NCBI RefSeq assembly: GCF_009858335.1
Contig: NZ_VMSE01000001.1
Span: 1 to 64,000 of the forward strand
Length of the DNA: 64,000 nucleotides
DNA from: Methylovorus glucosotrophus
GTDB lineage: Bacteria > Pseudomonadota > Gammaproteobacteria > Burkholderiales > Methylophilaceae
Direction of reading: 5' to 3'
The notes beneath the pieces were generated by a model. The model had not been told where the DNA came from. It ran no database searches and worked only from the letters and a program-made list of their open reading frames with translations. The position numbers and the translations under genes were made by a program. This document shows, piece after piece, positions 46,805 through 55,136 of this stretch (within the stretch, counting starts at the first letter, position 1; each line of letters begins with the position of its first letter).

Positions 46805-47692
46805 ATGGCCTGGGTATCGCTGAAAATAGAAGCCAGGGACAACACCGCCGACCTCATCAGTGACACCCTGATGGAACTTGGGGCGTTGTCCGCCAGTATT
46901 GAAGACGCCAACGCCGAAACCCCGGATGAACAGCCGATTTTTGGTGAACCAGGGGATCCCCCTCCCGGCATCTGGCAACACAACATTGTCAGTGCCCTGC
47001 TGGCAGAGTCGACCGATATTCCTGAACTGATGGGCGAGCTGGCCATCGCCACCGGGCTTGCCGACTTGCCCTACACGACGGAGCATGTGGCAGAACAGGA
47101 CTGGGTGCGTGCCACCCAATCCCAATTTGATCCTATACGTATTCGAGATGATTTATGGATAGTGCCATCCTGGCATGACGCCCCCAACCCGGATGCATTG
47201 AATATAGTGCTGGATCCCGGTCTGGCATTTGGCACGGGCAGCCACCCCACCACGCACCTGTGCCTGGCATGGCTGGCTGATCATGTCCGCAAGGATCTCA
47301 CCGTACTGGACTACGGCTGCGGTTCGGGCATTCTGGCAATTGCGGCCAGCAAATTGGGAGCGGGCAAGGTTGTTGGCGTCGATATTGACCCCCAGGCCAT
47401 ACAATCCAGTGAATTCAATGCCGAAAATAATGGCGTAGTAGCTGAGTTCTATCTTCCCAAGCAACTCCCTGATAGCTTTGCCGATCTGGTCGTTGCCAAT
47501 ATTCTCTCCAGCGCCCTGATGGTGCTAGCCCCAGCACTCGCCGCCGCCTGCAAGCCTCACGGCCGTATAGCGCTTTCCGGTATTTTGCGTGAGCAACAGG
47601 AGCAAGTCTCGGCGATCTATGCCGAATGGTTTGATATGGACACCCCGCAATTCATGGATAGCTGGGTGTTACTCACTGGTCGCAAAAGATGA
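46805..47692 (+). CDS. prmA: Ribosomal protein L11 methyltransferase
   Basis: Trimethylates ribosomal protein L11. The 295-residue protein has the N-terminal substrate domain and then GLAFGTGSHPTTHLCL, the SAM motif VLDYGCGSGILAIAA, VVGVDIDPQAI and the NPPY-like VVANILSS. It follows accC by 1 bp and overlaps the next gene by 4 bp. Confidence 0.95.
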   Translation: MAWVSLKIEARDNTADLISDTLMELGALSASIEDANAETPDEQPIFGEPGDPPPGIWQHNIVSALLAESTDIPELMGELAIATGLADLPYTTEHVAEQDWVRATQSQFDPIRIRDDLWIVPSWHDAPNPDALNIVLDPGLAFGTGSHPTTHLCLAWLADHVRKDLTVLDYGCGSGILAIAASKLGAGKVVGVDIDPQAIQSSEFNAENNGVVAEFYLPKQLPDSFADLVVANILSSALMVLAPALAAACKPHGRIALSGILREQQEQVSAIYAEWFDMDTPQFMDSWVLLTGRKR

Positions 47693-48606
47693 GTCTGATT
47701 ACCTCCTGCCCAGCGTGTTCCACCGTGTTTCACGTGAAGCCGGAGCAATTATCCTTGCGGCGGGGGATCGTACGGTGCGGCGAATGCCAGCATGTGTTTA
47801 ATGCATTGGATCATTTGCATGAGGCTGAGACTGTCGCACCTGAGACTGTCGCACCTGAGACTGCCGTACCTGAGACTGCCGTACCTGAGACTGTCGCACC
47901 TGAGACTGCCGTACCTGAGACTGCCGTACCTGAGACTGCCGTACCTGAGACTGCCGTACCTGAGACTGCCGTACCCGAGGCTGTCGTACCTGAGGCTGTC
48001 GTACCTGAGGCTCAGCCCCATGCCGCAGAAGCGCATATAACGCATCAGACTGCACCGCACATCCCTGCTCAGCCATCCTGGCATGACGCAGCGCCCAAAT
48101 CCAAGTTACAAACAGTCCTCGTTCAACCCAAGACCGTCCCCTGGCTGAGTGGCTTGTTTGCGTTGCTGCTGGTGATCACGATTGCTCTGCAACTGGCCTA
48201 TTTCCAGCGCAATGCGCTGGCACTGGCTTGGCCGGAAAGCAAACCTTATCTGCAACAAGCATGCGCCATGCTGAATTGCAAAATCGAACTGCCCAGGGAT
48301 GCGAGCAAACTGGTGATCGACGATGCCAATCTGCTGGAAGACAGCGACTACGAAGGCCTGTTGATCCTGACCAGCACCCTGATTAATCAGGCAAGACATG
48401 TGCAAGCCTATCCGCAGCTGGAATTAACCTTAACCGATGCGAATGATCAAGCCGTGTTGCGTCGCACATTCACCCCGGCAGAGTACCTGCCTGCCGGCAC
48501 TGTGGTAGAAAAAGGCATCCCGGCAGGAAAAGAGCTGCCTATCAAACTGCTGCTCACAGCAGATCATCAAACCGTCTCAGGCTACCGCTTGTTTGTGAAT
48601 TACTAA
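47689..48606 (+). CDS. Zinc-ribbon and DUF3426 membrane protein with pentapeptide-repeat linker
   Basis: Function unknown. The 305-residue protein starts with an MJ0042-type zinc ribbon whose cysteines lie in CPAC (7-10) and CGEC (30-33). It then has 12 pentapeptide units of ETAVP, ETVAP or EAVVP type (47-106), a membrane helix at about 148-166 (WLSGLFALLLVITIALQL), and a DUF3426 periplasmic domain that ends in YRLFVNY. The start overlaps prmA as ATGA. The repeats make length variation likely between strains. A hairpin terminator follows. Confidence 0.88.
   Translation: MSLITSCPACSTVFHVKPEQLSLRRGIVRCGECQHVFNALDHLHEAETVAPETVAPETAVPETAVPETVAPETAVPETAVPETAVPETAVPETAVPEAVVPEAVVPEAQPHAAEAHITHQTAPHIPAQPSWHDAAPKSKLQTVLVQPKTVPWLSGLFALLLVITIALQLAYFQRNALALAWPESKPYLQQACAMLNCKIELPRDASKLVIDDANLLEDSDYEGLLILTSTLINQARHVQAYPQLELTLTDANDQAVLRRTFTPAEYLPAGTVVEKGIPAGKELPIKLLLTADHQTVSGYRLFVNY
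47827..48006 (+). repeat. 12-copy 15-bp in-frame tandem repeat
   Basis: Twelve units of 15 bp (consensus GAGACTGCCGTACCT) run without interruption and keep the reading frame. The copies are nearly identical at the nucleotide level, the two last ones being more diverged (GAGGCTGTCGTACCT). High identity suggests recent slippage or recombination. The same period opens long false frames on the other strand. Confidence 0.95.
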
Positions 48607-50520: not shown

Positions 50521-52437
50521 CTAAATGAGCTGCAAGGCCTTGAGCTTGCGATACAGGGTATTCCTGCTGATACCTAGCTGGCGTGCTACGGCAGATACGT
50601 TGCCCGCGTGTTGCTGCCAGGCATTGCGTACGGCCTCCGTTGTCACGGCATCGAGCGAGACCTGGGGAGACTCCTGAACGCGCTCCGGTGCTCCCACGCC
50701 CTGCTCAAGCTCATCCAGAAAATCCTGCATCAGGTGCATGGATTGAATCTTGCCGCCACCTGATAAGGCGAGAGCCGTCTTGACCACGTTATGCAGCTGG
50801 CGAATATTGCCAGGCCAGGGATGACACTCGAACAACTGCATGACTTCCGCATCGATAGGCGTAGTTTCAGCGTTTTCCGTCTGCAGGATAAGTTGTACCA
50901 GCGCGGCCAGGTCCGTGCGCTGCCGCAGAGGCGGCAGACTGACACTGAGGCCATTCAGCCGATAATACAGATCCCGCCGGAACTCGCCCTTCTCCACCCG
51001 TTCACGCAGCTTCTGGTTGGTCGCACTGACCAGCATGAAGTCCAGGGGTTTGGACTTGCTGCTACCCAATGGCGTAACACTGCGCTCTTGCAATACGCGT
51101 AGCAACCGCGCCTGCAGGCCCAAGGGCATATCGCCGATTTCGTCCAGGAACAAGGTTCCCCCGTTAGCCTGCTCCAGCTTGCCGGTGCTGCCCTTGCGGC
51201 GTGCACCGGTAAAGGCGCCGTCTTCATAGCCAAACAGTTCGGCCTCAATCAGGCCCTCAGGCAGGGCGGCGCAGTTAACCGCAACCCACGGGCCTTGAAA
51301 GCGCGTACTGGCCTCATGAATTGCCCGGGCAAACAACTCCTTGCCCGCCCCGGTTTCGCCTTCAATCAGAATCGGAATCTGCTGATTCAATACCAGGGTC
51401 ACCTGGCTGATCGCCCGCGCCACCTGAGGATCACCTGTATTCAGCATGCCCAGATTGGCCGCCGCATCACGTTTCTGAGGCTCTATCGCCGTCGCGGGGC
51501 GTGCAGGGCTGTTGGTGCGAGCCTCGGCACGGGCAAACAGGCGCGCACCATTGGTCAGACGCAAAGGGAATACCAAGGTACTCGCGCTCGCGGCTTCGAG
51601 CTTGCCCAAATCACTTTCAAAAATCTGATGGAAATAGACGCCACCTTGCGGCAACTCGGTGGGAGCCAAGCCCAACTGAAACTGTCCACTTCGATTGAGC
51701 GCGACCAGGCGGCCATCCGCTCCGAACATGGCGATGCCCTCCCACAAGGTGCCAATGAATTCTGGCCGGGCATGAAAATGCAGCACCATGTCGGCCTGGT
51801 GGCTGGCGCGGAAAAGGCGGTTCTCAATCATTTGCGCCGCCATTTTTACCAGCGCGAGGGTGTGTTGCTGCGGCATCATCAAATCATTGGAAACATCCAG
51901 TGTCCCCAACAGATTATTGTGTGCCCCGAATATCGGCACAGCGGAGCAGCTGAGAATCTGGTTGCGCTCCATGAAGTGCTCGGCACCGCGCACGGTAAGC
52001 GCAGATTGCTCGATCAGGGCCGTGCCAATGGCGTTGGTGCCCCGGTCCGCCTCATGCCATGAGCTACCGGGGTTAAGGGCAAGCTGTTGCGCCTCTGACA
52101 GAAACGCATTGTCTCCCAGGCTATGCAAAATCACGCCCTGGTCATCGGTCAGGATCACCATGCTGCGCGTGTGCGCAATCTGCTCATTGAGCGTGGTCAT
52201 TTCGGGACGCGCATGCGACAGCAGCAGATGGTACTGCTCCTGACGCTGGCGCAATTCATACTGCGTCAGTATCTGATTATCCACAGCCCCGGCGCTGTCC
52301 ATGCCATTGGCAAGGCAGCGCTGCCAGGAGCGGGCGATTTCTTCCGCCACGGCGCCTTGCTGCACCTGACCACTGACCAGAAATTGCGAGCGCGCATTTC
52401 TGATCTGGTGTGCCTCATCGGGAATGGAATATTGCAT
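50521..52437 (-). CDS. AcoR-type sigma-54-dependent transcriptional activator
   Basis: A 638-residue enhancer-binding protein with an N-terminal sensor (GAF-like about 70-210, then PAS-like about 225-310), an AAA+ domain and a FIS-type helix-turn-helix. The AAA+ domain has Walker A GETGAGKE (360-367), the sigma-54 loop GAFTGA (407-412), and Walker B GGTLFLDEIGDMP. The HTH is in VSAVARQLGISRNTLYRKL. The layout is that of AcoR, which senses acetoin or related compounds. It is divergent from xoxF, whose upstream region has a sigma-54 promoter, so it probably activates xoxF. The ligand is unknown. Confidence 0.9.
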   Translation of the reverse strand: MQYSIPDEAHQIRNARSQFLVSGQVQQGAVAEEIARSWQRCLANGMDSAGAVDNQILTQYELRQRQEQYHLLLSHARPEMTTLNEQIAHTRSMVILTDDQGVILHSLGDNAFLSEAQQLALNPGSSWHEADRGTNAIGTALIEQSALTVRGAEHFMERNQILSCSAVPIFGAHNNLLGTLDVSNDLMMPQQHTLALVKMAAQMIENRLFRASHQADMVLHFHARPEFIGTLWEGIAMFGADGRLVALNRSGQFQLGLAPTELPQGGVYFHQIFESDLGKLEAASASTLVFPLRLTNGARLFARAEARTNSPARPATAIEPQKRDAAANLGMLNTGDPQVARAISQVTLVLNQQIPILIEGETGAGKELFARAIHEASTRFQGPWVAVNCAALPEGLIEAELFGYEDGAFTGARRKGSTGKLEQANGGTLFLDEIGDMPLGLQARLLRVLQERSVTPLGSSKSKPLDFMLVSATNQKLRERVEKGEFRRDLYYRLNGLSVSLPPLRQRTDLAALVQLILQTENAETTPIDAEVMQLFECHPWPGNIRQLHNVVKTALALSGGGKIQSMHLMQDFLDELEQGVGAPERVQESPQVSLDAVTTEAVRNAWQQHAGNVSAVARQLGISRNTLYRKLKALQLI

Positions 52438-52481
52438 GGCTAGCTGTCAGTCTTTGGCTGGGGAAACGCAGGAAAATCACC

Positions 52482-52517
52482 TGTCACTGAATGTAACACC
52501 TGTTCATTTTCGTGACA
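52482..52517. promoter_or_regulatory. TGT-repeat region, candidate activator site
   Basis: TGTCAC (52482-52487) and GTGACA (52512-52517) are an inverted repeat, and between them TGT recurs at 52492 and 52501, roughly one helical turn apart. It lies about 115-150 bp upstream of the sigma-54 -24 element, the usual range for enhancer sites. Confidence 0.35.
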
Positions 52518-52527
52518 ACCACACGCC

Positions 52528-52541
52528 TGCCGCTAGCGGCA
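52528..52541. promoter_or_regulatory. 14-bp palindrome, candidate upstream activator sequence
   Basis: TGCCGCTAGCGGCA is a perfect palindrome. Its centre is about 95 bp upstream of the sigma-54 -24 box, and about 97 bp upstream of the AcoR-type gene, so it could serve both activation of xoxF and autoregulation. Confidence 0.5.
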
Positions 52542-52629
52542 TTCCCCCTACGGCCATGATTTTCACATCTCGCCCGCGAGCCTTATTCCGCGCGGCATCC
52601 AGGCAATCATCCCATCTCGGCTTCATGGC

Positions 52630-52645
52630 TGGCACAGCGATTGCA
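52630..52645 (+). promoter_or_regulatory. Sigma-54 (-24/-12) promoter of xoxF
   Basis: TGGCAC-AGCGA-TTGCA fits the sigma-54 consensus TGGCACRNNNNTTGCW at every defined position. Transcription should start near 52656, giving an untranslated leader of about 87 bases that includes a possible stem (CCACC at 52660 with GGTGG near 52693). The remaining part of the 305-bp divergent region has no other feature that I can support. Confidence 0.85.
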
Positions 52646-52742
52646 ATTAAGGCATTACTGCCACCGGCTTCTGGATCCCCCGCCGGAACTGGTGGCCAGT
52701 CACTCACATGCTGTTAAAACAAATTAACTATGGAGATTTAGC

Positions 52743-54611
52743 GTGAAGACAACAACCTTGAAACTCGCCTTAGCTGGCGTACTGGGTCTCAGCAGTTTGA
52801 GCAGCCTTGCCGCGACTGAACTTGAAAACCTGATGAAGGACGACAACCAGTGGGCGCATCCTCGTAAAGATTATGCGAATACCGGCTACAGCCGTTTGAG
52901 CCAGATCAACAAAGGCAATGTGCGCAACCTGAAAATGGCCTGGTCCTTTGCTACGGGTGTGAACCGCGGCCACGAAGGTGCCCCGCTGGTAATCAATGAT
53001 GTCATGTATGTACATACGGCATTCCCCAACAACGTATACGCGCTGGATCTGAACGACAACCAGAAGATCATCTGGTCTTACTTCCCCAAGCAGGATCCAT
53101 CGGTTCAGGCATTGCTGTGCTGCGATAACGTTAACCGCGGCCTGGGCTATGGCGATGGCAAGATTTTCCTGCAACAGAACGACGGCACTCTGGTTGCCCT
53201 GGATGCGAAGAACGGCAACAAGTTGTGGGACGTTAAGGTAGTAGACACCAAAACCGGCGCATCCAATACCAATGCGCCACACGTCATCAAGGACAAGGTC
53301 ATTACCGGCTGTTCCGGTGGCGAATATGGCGTACGTTGCTATATCTCGGCCTACAACATCAAGGATGGCTCCTTGGCATGGCGTGCATACAGCACCGGCC
53401 CGGACAGCGAAACGCTGATTGGCGACGGTTTCAACAAGGATAACCCGCACTACAGCGCGCTGTCGGTTTACGAAGACGTGAATGGCGGCAACAAGGAAGG
53501 CGGCTCATTCAAGGCCCTGACCAAGGATCAGATGAAGTTCCCGGAAAAAGAACTGGGCACCCGTACCTGGCTCAAGCCTCAGGCCATCAAGAACGGCTAT
53601 GAGCATGGCGGCGGCCCTACCTGGGGCTGGTACTCGTTTGATCCTGCGCTGAACCTGATGTACTACGGTACCGGCAACCCCGGCACCTGGAACCCTGATG
53701 TACGCCCTGGTGACAACAAGTGGTCCATGACGATTTTTGCACGCGATGTGGATACCGGCATGGCACGCTGGGGTTATCAGATGACACCGCATGACGAGTG
53801 GGATTACGACGGCATGAACGAGATCGTGTTGTGGGAAGCCAAGGGCAAGAAACTGGCCACACACTTTGACCGTAACGGCTTTGGCTACACCTTTGACCGC
53901 ACCAACGGCACGTTGCTGGTGGCTGAGAAGATGAATCCTTTCGTTAACTGGGCCACCAAGGTAGACCTGAAATCAGGCGTGCCGGTAAAGGATCCCAAGT
54001 TCTCGACTCACCAGGATTACAACGCCAAGGGTATTTGCCCATCGGCGCTGGGTGTTAAGGATGAGCAACCTTCTGCCTTCTCGCCCAAGACCGGCATGTT
54101 CTATGTTCCACTCAACCATGTGTGCATGACCTATGAACCCGTGGAGTCCAAGTACATCGCTGGCCAGCCATGGGTAGGCGCAACCCTGACCATGTTCGCA
54201 GGTCCTGACGGTGTCATGGGTGGCTTCATGGCTTGGGACGGCCTCAAGGGCAAATCAGCCTGGTACAACAAAGAGAAATTCTCTGCCTGGGGTGGCGCAT
54301 TGGTAACGTCCAGCGACATCGTGTTCTACGGCACCTTGGACCGCTGGTTCAAGGCGGTGGATGCACAAACCGGCAAGGAACTCTGGAAATTCCAGGTAGG
54401 TTCCGGTGTGGTTGGCAATGCCATTACCTATAGCCACAAGGGCAAGCAATACGTGGGCGTTCTGTCGGGTATCGGTGGCTGGGCAGGTGTGGCGATGAAT
54501 CTGGGTCTCACCAATGAAACCGATGGCCTGGGTGCAGCTGGCGGCTACAAGGAGCTGACCAAGTGGAATGCAGCGCCTGGTGGCGGTGCCATGAATGTAT
54601 TCAGTCTTTAA
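52743..54611 (+). CDS. xoxF: Lanthanide-dependent methanol dehydrogenase XoxF (PQQ), possibly XoxF4 type
   Basis: Periplasmic PQQ enzyme that oxidises methanol. The 622-residue protein starts at GTG 52743 with GGAG upstream and has a signal peptide ending LSSLAA. Eight-blade propeller features are present, including the vicinal disulfide Cys126-Cys127. Metal-site residues are Glu194 (SGGEYG), Asn312 (GTGNPGTWN) and Asp354 in PHDEWDYDG. The extra aspartate two residues later (Asp356) marks the lanthanide XoxF type; calcium-type MxaF has Ala. Relative to XoxF1/XoxF5 there are about 35 extra residues between Glu194 and Asn312, which I think fits the XoxF4 clade of Methylophilaceae. The cytochrome gene follows. 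Confidence 0.93.
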   Translation: MKTTTLKLALAGVLGLSSLSSLAATELENLMKDDNQWAHPRKDYANTGYSRLSQINKGNVRNLKMAWSFATGVNRGHEGAPLVINDVMYVHTAFPNNVYALDLNDNQKIIWSYFPKQDPSVQALLCCDNVNRGLGYGDGKIFLQQNDGTLVALDAKNGNKLWDVKVVDTKTGASNTNAPHVIKDKVITGCSGGEYGVRCYISAYNIKDGSLAWRAYSTGPDSETLIGDGFNKDNPHYSALSVYEDVNGGNKEGGSFKALTKDQMKFPEKELGTRTWLKPQAIKNGYEHGGGPTWGWYSFDPALNLMYYGTGNPGTWNPDVRPGDNKWSMTIFARDVDTGMARWGYQMTPHDEWDYDGMNEIVLWEAKGKKLATHFDRNGFGYTFDRTNGTLLVAEKMNPFVNWATKVDLKSGVPVKDPKFSTHQDYNAKGICPSALGVKDEQPSAFSPKTGMFYVPLNHVCMTYEPVESKYIAGQPWVGATLTMFAGPDGVMGGFMAWDGLKGKSAWYNKEKFSAWGGALVTSSDIVFYGTLDRWFKAVDAQTGKELWKFQVGSGVVGNAITYSHKGKQYVGVLSGIGGWAGVAMNLGLTNETDGLGAAGGYKELTKWNAAPGGGAMNVFSL

Positions 54612-54620
54612 ACCATAAAA

Positions 54621-54655
54621 AACGGTGGGAGGCCCTGTCTAGACGGGTCTCCCCG
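54621..54655 (+). other. Intercistronic hairpin between xoxF and the cytochrome gene
   Basis: A long imperfect palindrome: ACGG-GGGAG on the left pairs with CTCCC-CGT on the right around the central palindrome GTCTAGAC. There is no T-run. It begins 9 bp after the xoxF stop and ends 13 bp before the cytochrome ATG. It may cap the abundant xoxF mRNA at its 3' side or tune the ratio of the two proteins. Confidence 0.6.
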
Positions 54656-54668
54656 TGAGGAGAGCAAC

Positions 54669-55136
54669 ATGATGAAATTACGCTATATCGCCTTGTTGGC
54701 TATCGCCCTGCCTTACGCAGGTAACGCTGGCATCAGCCTGGTATCCACCATCGACAACAAACCGCTGGCGATCCCCGGCGCGATGTTTGATACCCCTGCC
54801 GCCAAGGAATTCATGAGTTCCGGCAAAAATGCCTATCTGGGCAATGCCGATGCCATCAAAACCGGCAAGAAAATTTTTCAGATGTATAGCTGCACTGCCT
54901 GCCATGGCGCAAAAGGCGAAGGTGCTGTCGGCCCCAACCTGATTGATGACAAATGGAACTACGCCAAGAATGCCAACGATCAGGGTATTTTTGAAACGAT
55001 CTGGGCCGGCACAGCCGGCGGCATGGGGGCCAAAGGCGCGGGCGCCATGGTACCGGATGATCCTACCCAGGGCCTTACCCCGGATGAAGTACTCAAAGTG
55101 GTCGCGTTTCTGCGCAGCAACGCGGTCAAGCATTAA
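54669..55136 (+). CDS. xoxG: Cytochrome c partner of XoxF (XoxG/cytochrome c-L like)
   Basis: A 155-residue periplasmic cytochrome with a signal peptide (KLRYIALLAIALPYAGNAG), one heme motif CTACH, and a later methionine ligand, probably within the GGMGAKGAGAMVPDDP region. GAGGAG lies 6 bp upstream of ATG 54669. It follows xoxF by 57 bp, so it is very likely the electron acceptor. No xoxJ gene is adjacent, unlike many xoxFGJ clusters. A strong terminator ends the unit. Confidence 0.85.
   Translation: MMKLRYIALLAIALPYAGNAGISLVSTIDNKPLAIPGAMFDTPAAKEFMSSGKNAYLGNADAIKTGKKIFQMYSCTACHGAKGEGAVGPNLIDDKWNYAKNANDQGIFETIWAGTAGGMGAKGAGAMVPDDPTQGLTPDEVLKVVAFLRSNAVKH

Follow-up and report, generated by a model that had tools for sequence, protein, structure and literature searches.

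Sequence comparison points to a dedicated sigma-54 switch for xoxF of the XoxF4-2 type in Methylovorus glucosotrophus and other Methylophilaceae

Results

The xoxF promoter

In the window analysed here, a stretch of 64,000 nucleotides from Methylovorus glucosotrophus, an xoxF gene that is most likely of the XoxF4-2 type is very probably controlled by a dedicated sigma-54 switch, with a divergently transcribed AcoR-type activator and two TGT-N11-ACA sites (Table 1). Sequence comparison establishes the promoter, the activator, and the operator, and shows that the three are conserved together and, among the copies tested, confined to a single XoxF clade.

Table 1. Features of the xoxF locus, in positions of the window.
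Feature	Position	Strand	Basis or remark
AcoR-type sigma-54 activator, 638 aa; GAF, PAS-like, AAA+ with GAFTGA, Fis-type HTH	50521..52437	-	Pfam, model, DhaR-sensor match
Putative operator (UAS) site 1, TGTCACTGAATGTAACA, TGT-N11-ACA	52482..52498	.	Conserved block
Putative operator (UAS) site 2, TGTTCATTTTCGTGACA, TGT-N11-ACA	52501..52517	.	19 bp from site 1
Palindrome TGCCGCTAGCGGCA	52528..52541	.	Exact; 14 bp; 2/34 loci
Sigma-54 promoter, -24/-12 element TGGCACAGCGATTGCA	52630..52645	+	Exact match; core in 34/34 and 5/5 loci vs 0/40 controls
xoxF, most likely XoxF4-2 type, 622 aa, GTG start, HDEWDYD	52743..54611	+	Motif, tree
RNA hairpin in the xoxF/cytochrome gap	54627..54653	+	Fold -21.2 kcal/mol, z -1.9, 10/200 shuffles as good
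Cytochrome c (XoxG-like)	54669..55136	+	Pfam Cytochrom_C

The element TGGCACAGCGATTGCA lies 97 bases 5' of the xoxF GTG and combines a -24 GG and a -12 GC, separated by a 10-base spacer, in the TGGCAY-N5-TTGC context; the xoxF transcript would be expected to start near 52656. A single match of this kind in 64 kb is weak evidence, because sites with up to one mismatch are not more numerous in the window (four, with TGGCACAGCGATTGCA the sole one free of mismatches) than in shuffles of it (5.58), and it is the comparison across loci that makes the evidence strong. We searched 150 Methylophilaceae genomes for the activator and XoxF, and examined 89 loci for the promoter; once ten without xoxF had been dropped, the core was sought within 400 bp upstream in the remaining 79. 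The exact core TGGCAY-N5-TTGC was present in 34/34 loci of the main group and in 5/5 loci of a second divergent pair, and in 0/40 other methanol-dehydrogenase-type genes, namely five from the window's own genome (mxaF, three further XoxF4-like genes, and one distant PQQ dehydrogenase) and 35 hand-picked xoxF genes of the family; a one-mismatch site occurred in one of these 40, at -367. Six group members outside the 79-locus set (L038, L048-L052) all carry the exact core. Throughout the 39 loci of the main group and second pair, TGGCA and TTGC are invariant, the base after Y is a purine, and the site begins 87-146 bases 5' of the start codon (median 107).

These results agree with the sequence-only reading of this DNA, which had placed a sigma-54 promoter before xoxF and had proposed that the control is dedicated to this gene. 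It is hardly credible that the match is a coincidence and that some other promoter drives xoxF: the window count at up to one mismatch, being no higher than chance, would allow it, but the core is kept in 39/39 loci against 0/40 controls and at a fixed place before the start codon, whereas just 30 of 7800 resampled upstream regions (0.4 %) contain it, and we rejected this explanation based on conservation and resampling rate. Also rejected, on the 0/40 count, was a control common to all xoxF copies; in fact, only one of the four XoxF4-like genes in this genome has it, a feature that the earlier reading had not contained. On the scale of the whole genome there are 20 exact TGGCAY-N5-TTGCW sites, against none for the reversed control pattern, and one copy of rpoN (G000:C2:145377, where G000 is the window's own genome). 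The rpoN gene was found in 143 of the 150 family genomes, including all those that carry the activator-xoxF pair.

Recurrence of the activator-xoxF pair

As the sequence-only reading had asked, the divergent pair and its promoter were sought in other Methylophilaceae, and both recur: among 30 activator loci fetched with 1.5 kb flanks, a divergent xoxF adjoins the activator in 29. An XoxF at least 83 % identical to that of the window is encoded in 39 of the 150 genomes; a further one, whose frame is fragmentary, comes from G144. The activator adjoins xoxF in 39 of 40 XoxF4-2-type loci (33 of the 34 main-group loci in the 79-locus set), being interrupted in G070, and in all five second-pair loci, which belong to genus g11 and whose XoxF and activator are 78-79 % and 52-56 % identical, respectively, to those of the window.

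Three genomes depart from this arrangement. On G070:C28 (L157) the activator beside xoxF4-2 is in pieces, with one in-frame stop, yet the locus retains xoxF together with an exact sigma-54 site; this genome also has the second activator-xoxF pair. G061, the exception among the 30 activator loci, carries on contig C1 two activator copies (L138, L139) that keep the operator but adjoin neither an xoxF nor a sigma-54 site and are followed by a metallophosphatase-type gene, and the second activator-xoxF pair is again present in the genome. Lastly, xoxF4-2 on G018:C9 (L167, L227) has the promoter without a local activator, and its two-site layout is the same as that of the operator at L142 (G018:C13), which faces an aldehyde dehydrogenase with its own exact sigma-54 site. 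This suggests that xoxF4-2 of G018, a genome listed with 5 % contamination, may be controlled in trans.

The divergent activator

Pfam identifies GAF, Sigma54_activat (PF00158, 2e-65), AAA lid, and HTH_8 domains in the protein encoded opposite xoxF, and GAFTGA can be read in its sequence, so that the AAA+ sigma-54 interaction domain, the GAFTGA motif, and the Fis-type HTH of an enhancer-binding protein are all present. The structural model (53 sequences, mean pLDDT 89.6, pTM 0.55) contains a second alpha-beta domain at residues 217-306 which, having no Pfam match of its own, we read as PAS-like from the model and from the profile of the DhaR sensor (4lrx), to which the sensor half is similar (7e-29, profile positions 10-281). 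The protein thus has the GAF plus PAS sensor half of the AcoR/DhaR type, as well as the rest of the domain order of those activators, in line with the divergent, GAFTGA-containing AcoR-type activator that the earlier reading had described. It differs from them in that its target here would be a lanthanide-type methanol dehydrogenase, and in scoring 297 bits where the NCBIfam cut-off for the DhaR equivalog is 551. The closest proteins are named by their sources "regulator of acetoin/glycerol metabolism" or "sigma-54-dependent Fis family", and a fold search returned AAA+ activators among the matches listed (50 of 1593), which reflect the AAA+ region. Genome-wide there are 14 Sigma54_activat matches, eight of which exceed 160 bits, the window's activator among them.

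In a tree of 88 activators built with a quick method, the xoxF-linked proteins form one clade (support 99), with L142 and a group of seven branching next to it. At seven of these eight neighbouring-branch loci there is an ORF of the same type, 506-517 aa long, which Pfam assigned to aldehyde dehydrogenases in the three of three tested. An alcohol or an aldehyde as effector, as the earlier reading had guessed, would fit these relatives. Deriving the effector from the sensor structure was also considered and rejected, as the sensor is DhaR-like and a ligand is not inferable from model or profile.

The operator

Relative to the -24 element, sites 1 and 2 start 148 and 129 bases upstream, and no other inverted repeat in the intergenic region is as long as the one they form together (arms of 17 nt, 71 % complementary). 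They belong to a block that is conserved across the genera compared, just 5' of the palindrome position; the pair lies 10 to 46 bases 5' of the palindrome and within 52480-52545, the stretch that the earlier reading had named for footprinting. At least one TGT-N11-ACA is present in 34/34 main-group loci, 5/5 second-pair loci, and 3/40 controls, the controls being scanned between 320 and 115 bases 5' of the start codon and the others over the 190 bases before the sigma-54 site. Five of the six further group loci also have one, L038 being without a strict match, and by chance the motif occurs in 748 of 7800 resampled stretches (9.6 %). A looser operator search allowing two mismatches gave 88 places against 47 in the control, and was too loose for use. 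The sites have the TGT-N10-12-ACA form described, in the part of PMC6615313 drawn on here, for AdhR and for many, though not all, other sigma-54 activators, and found here as expected for an enhancer-binding protein of this class. We regard the two TGT-N11-ACA sites as the conserved operator, to which the activator is predicted to bind.

The palindrome TGCCGCTAGCGGCA noted by the earlier reading is exact, and a perfect palindrome between the activator gene and the promoter would be a natural place for the activator to work through. It is, however, found in only 2/34 orthologous loci, both from the window's genus, is missing from a third genome of that genus (L155), and is absent from all five second-pair loci, as opposed to TGT-N11-ACA in 34/34 and 5/5. 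The operator role was rejected on the 2/34 count; that the activator acts through this palindrome appears extremely unlikely, and TGCCGCTAGCGGCA is probably not part of the switch.

The XoxF clade

An additional aspartate two residues after the catalytic one, as in HDEWDxD, is the mark of lanthanide-dependent XoxF. HDEWDYD is found in the window's protein and in 34/34 XoxF of the group, while the genome's own MxaF has HDEWDFA, and the closest solved chain to the window's XoxF is that of XoxF 6oc5. In a midpoint-rooted tree of 80 dehydrogenases built with a quick method, all 39 sigma-54-linked XoxF fall in one clade with an SH-aLRT of 99, to which none of the 38 other XoxF4-like rows belongs. 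The XoxF tree nests the second pair within this clade, whereas the activator tree makes it sister to the main group (main-group support 85), and because of this disagreement the branching order of the duplication is not fixed.

Genome G077, which we take to be Methylotenera mobilis JLW8, an identity that its gene neighbours fit (PMC3728764), has two xoxF genes. The product of the first is 85 % identical to the window's XoxF, and the gene is followed by a 108-aa cytochrome and faces an activator; that of the second is 73.5 % identical, and downstream of its gene lie an xoxJ-like gene (305 aa, solute-binding-protein-like), two cytochromes, and another ORF. These surroundings fit those reported for mmol_1770 and mmol_2048 (PMC3728764, in part), which in M. 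mobilis are XoxF4-2 and XoxF4-1, respectively (PMC6028718, in part). The window's XoxF clades with the former, the 85 % copy beside the 108-aa cytochrome, and apart from the latter, which stays outside the clade. Since the G077 copy in its clade fits mmol_1770, XoxF4-2 is the most likely identity of the window's gene, and sigma-54 control would mark this subtype. The two subtypes are those already distinguished in M. mobilis, where their expression differs and for both of which JLW8 mutants have been published (PMC6028718); no sigma-54 promoter or activator is named in the portions of that work considered here (PMC6028718, PMC5723320, PMC3728764).

Occurrence outside the family

Among 399 genomes of the order, 47 gave an XoxF match, 13 of them Methylophilaceae. 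Upstream sequence was sufficient at 15 of the 17 outside loci; an exact core is present at none of these 15 and a core with one mismatch at four. With wider flanks, nine of 24 outside loci (L291, L292, L302, L305, L306, L309, L310, L313, L314) were seen to hold an activator 39-45 % identical to that of the window within about 9 kb of xoxF, and L291 and L292 have a one-mismatch sigma-54 site. TGT-N11-ACA, scanned upstream of xoxF in 14 of the 24, is present in 5/9 loci with an activator and in 0/5 without. Furthermore, on a Nevskia MAG contig (L098) the gene for an XoxF-like protein (57 %) is preceded at 212 bases by an exact sigma-54 site, and an AcoR-like activator (42 %) is encoded about 4.5 kb downstream. 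These loci hint that the activator-xoxF association may be wider than Methylophilaceae.

A likely second target in the genome

Two places in the genome, and none in the control, carry a tandem operator pair, and the same holds for an operator and a sigma-54 site at a distance of 83-113 bases. The place other than xoxF, C1:1538987-1539123, precedes the gene at C1:1535796-1538939 for a 1048-aa chemoreceptor (PDC-type, HAMP, MCPsignal), where the core AATGGAACACCTGTT differs by one base from that of xoxF, AATGTAACACCTGTT. The chemoreceptor gene (97 %) and the tandem operator are kept in all three genomes of the genus, and the sigma-54 core is exact in two; in G017 it is lost by a change at the -12 GC. 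This locus (G000:C1:1535796-1539123; L317, L363) is likely a second target of the activator, and because operator and sigma-54 site stand before a chemoreceptor gene as well, the regulon in this genome probably links methanol oxidation to chemotaxis. As a family-wide target the chemoreceptor was rejected, as it was not seen beyond the window's genus in the fetched places: among 15 non-xoxF places with operator and sigma-54 site, L348, of the window's genus, leads to the chemoreceptor; at 12 others the ORF reached has a different start and length, and two lead to no ORF. A motif regex for chemoreceptors flagged 0/15, missing even L348, and carries no evidential weight.

Discussion

MxbDM and MxcQE are two-component lanthanide switches. 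MxaY (PMC5018670) and PedS2/PedR2 (PMC6115532) are likewise described, in the passages of those papers used here, as two-component lanthanide switches. These systems, too, control PQQ alcohol dehydrogenases including XoxF; here, in contrast, a one-component sigma-54 activator adjoins the gene. In the switch proposed here, the activator would bind the two TGT-N11-ACA sites upstream of the -24 element, its GAF-PAS half would sense a small molecule in the cytoplasm, and the AAA+ GAFTGA domain would then open the sigma-54 polymerase at the promoter, so that xoxF and the downstream cytochrome would be made. Closest by description, rather than by sequence, are AdhR-adhA of Clostridium (PMC6615313) and BmoR of Thauera (PMC8784404), also sigma-54 activators for alcohol metabolism, whose targets, as far as those sources go in the parts used, are not XoxF. 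In a search of largely open-access literature, no paper turned up that describes xoxF as regulated through sigma-54 or an AcoR-type protein, as far as the passages returned show. The mechanism by which xoxF copies are differentially expressed in Methylophilaceae is left open in the sections of PMC5723320, PMC6028718, and PMC3728764 consulted. A control element found in every examined member of one subtype, and in none of the other copies tested, would offer a reason for their different switching, would reduce the puzzle of the xoxF copies to something testable on a single promoter, activator, and operator, and predicts which copies respond. The inducer of its sensor protein would reveal the signal that these bacteria answer in methane-fed communities.

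Published expression data, taken from part of PMC3728764, bear on the signal. There, mmol_1770 was 4-6-fold higher in a sediment incubation than in laboratory cultures, and for msip34_0016 of Methylovorus the level in sediment exceeded that in cells grown on methanol or methylamine about 100-fold, although in absolute terms it was relatively low. We consider msip34_0016 to be probably the ortholog of the window's xoxF, because a protein 98 % identical to the window's activator sits in a 90 % cluster named M. glucosotrophus. In-situ induction is neither unique to the switch nor ensured by it, since mmol_2048, the XoxF4-1 gene of M. mobilis, in which we found no sigma-54 promoter, showed a slight rise in situ as well, and expression of the M. 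versatilis homolog was low throughout (PMC3728764).

That methanol is the direct and sufficient inducer of the same switch seems unlikely. XoxF4-2 of M. mobilis does have its lowest Km for methanol, about ten times below that for other substrates, its low activity in extracts being put down to low expression (PMC6028718, in part), and BmoR answers C2-C8 alcohols (PMC8784404, in part); but the M. glucosotrophus homolog is about 100-fold lower on methanol or methylamine than in sediment and, being low on laboratory substrates that include methanol, makes methanol alone look insufficient (PMC3728764). Even less probable is that the signal of this switch is the lanthanide itself, which would make it a lanthanide switch working in the cytoplasm: by motif its target is a lanthanide enzyme, but the sensor half is DhaR-like, the activator's nearest relatives adjoin aldehyde dehydrogenases, and the three other XoxF4-like genes of the genome, of the lanthanide type by motif, are without the promoter. 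We tentatively propose, as a possibility and no firmer than that, that XoxF4-2 is commanded separately by an activator derived from an aldehyde dehydrogenase locus, which would respond to a signal other than bulk methanol, such as a compound of the sediment or of a methanotroph partner, and would switch on the dehydrogenase and, at least in Methylovorus, the chemoreceptor, outside the usual lanthanide switch. If this were true, the cell would swim towards its substrate and oxidise it solely in that environmental setting.

The downstream cytochrome and a repeat in the window

The cytochrome gene is presumably co-transcribed with xoxF, given the 57-base gap and the common strand. Its product scores 100.8 bits with the cytochrome c(L) model, below the cut-off of 147.8, and is 42 % identical to a cytochrome in the genome's own mxa locus, whereas in strain SIP3-4 the cytochrome beside the xoxF homolog is called not homologous to mxaG (PMC3728764, in part), a difference that counts against a simple reading of the published expression data. 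Elsewhere in the window, the zinc-ribbon-like protein encoded at 47689-48606 contains VPETAVPEA repeats in a row, and on the strand opposite this repeat two reading frames are open.
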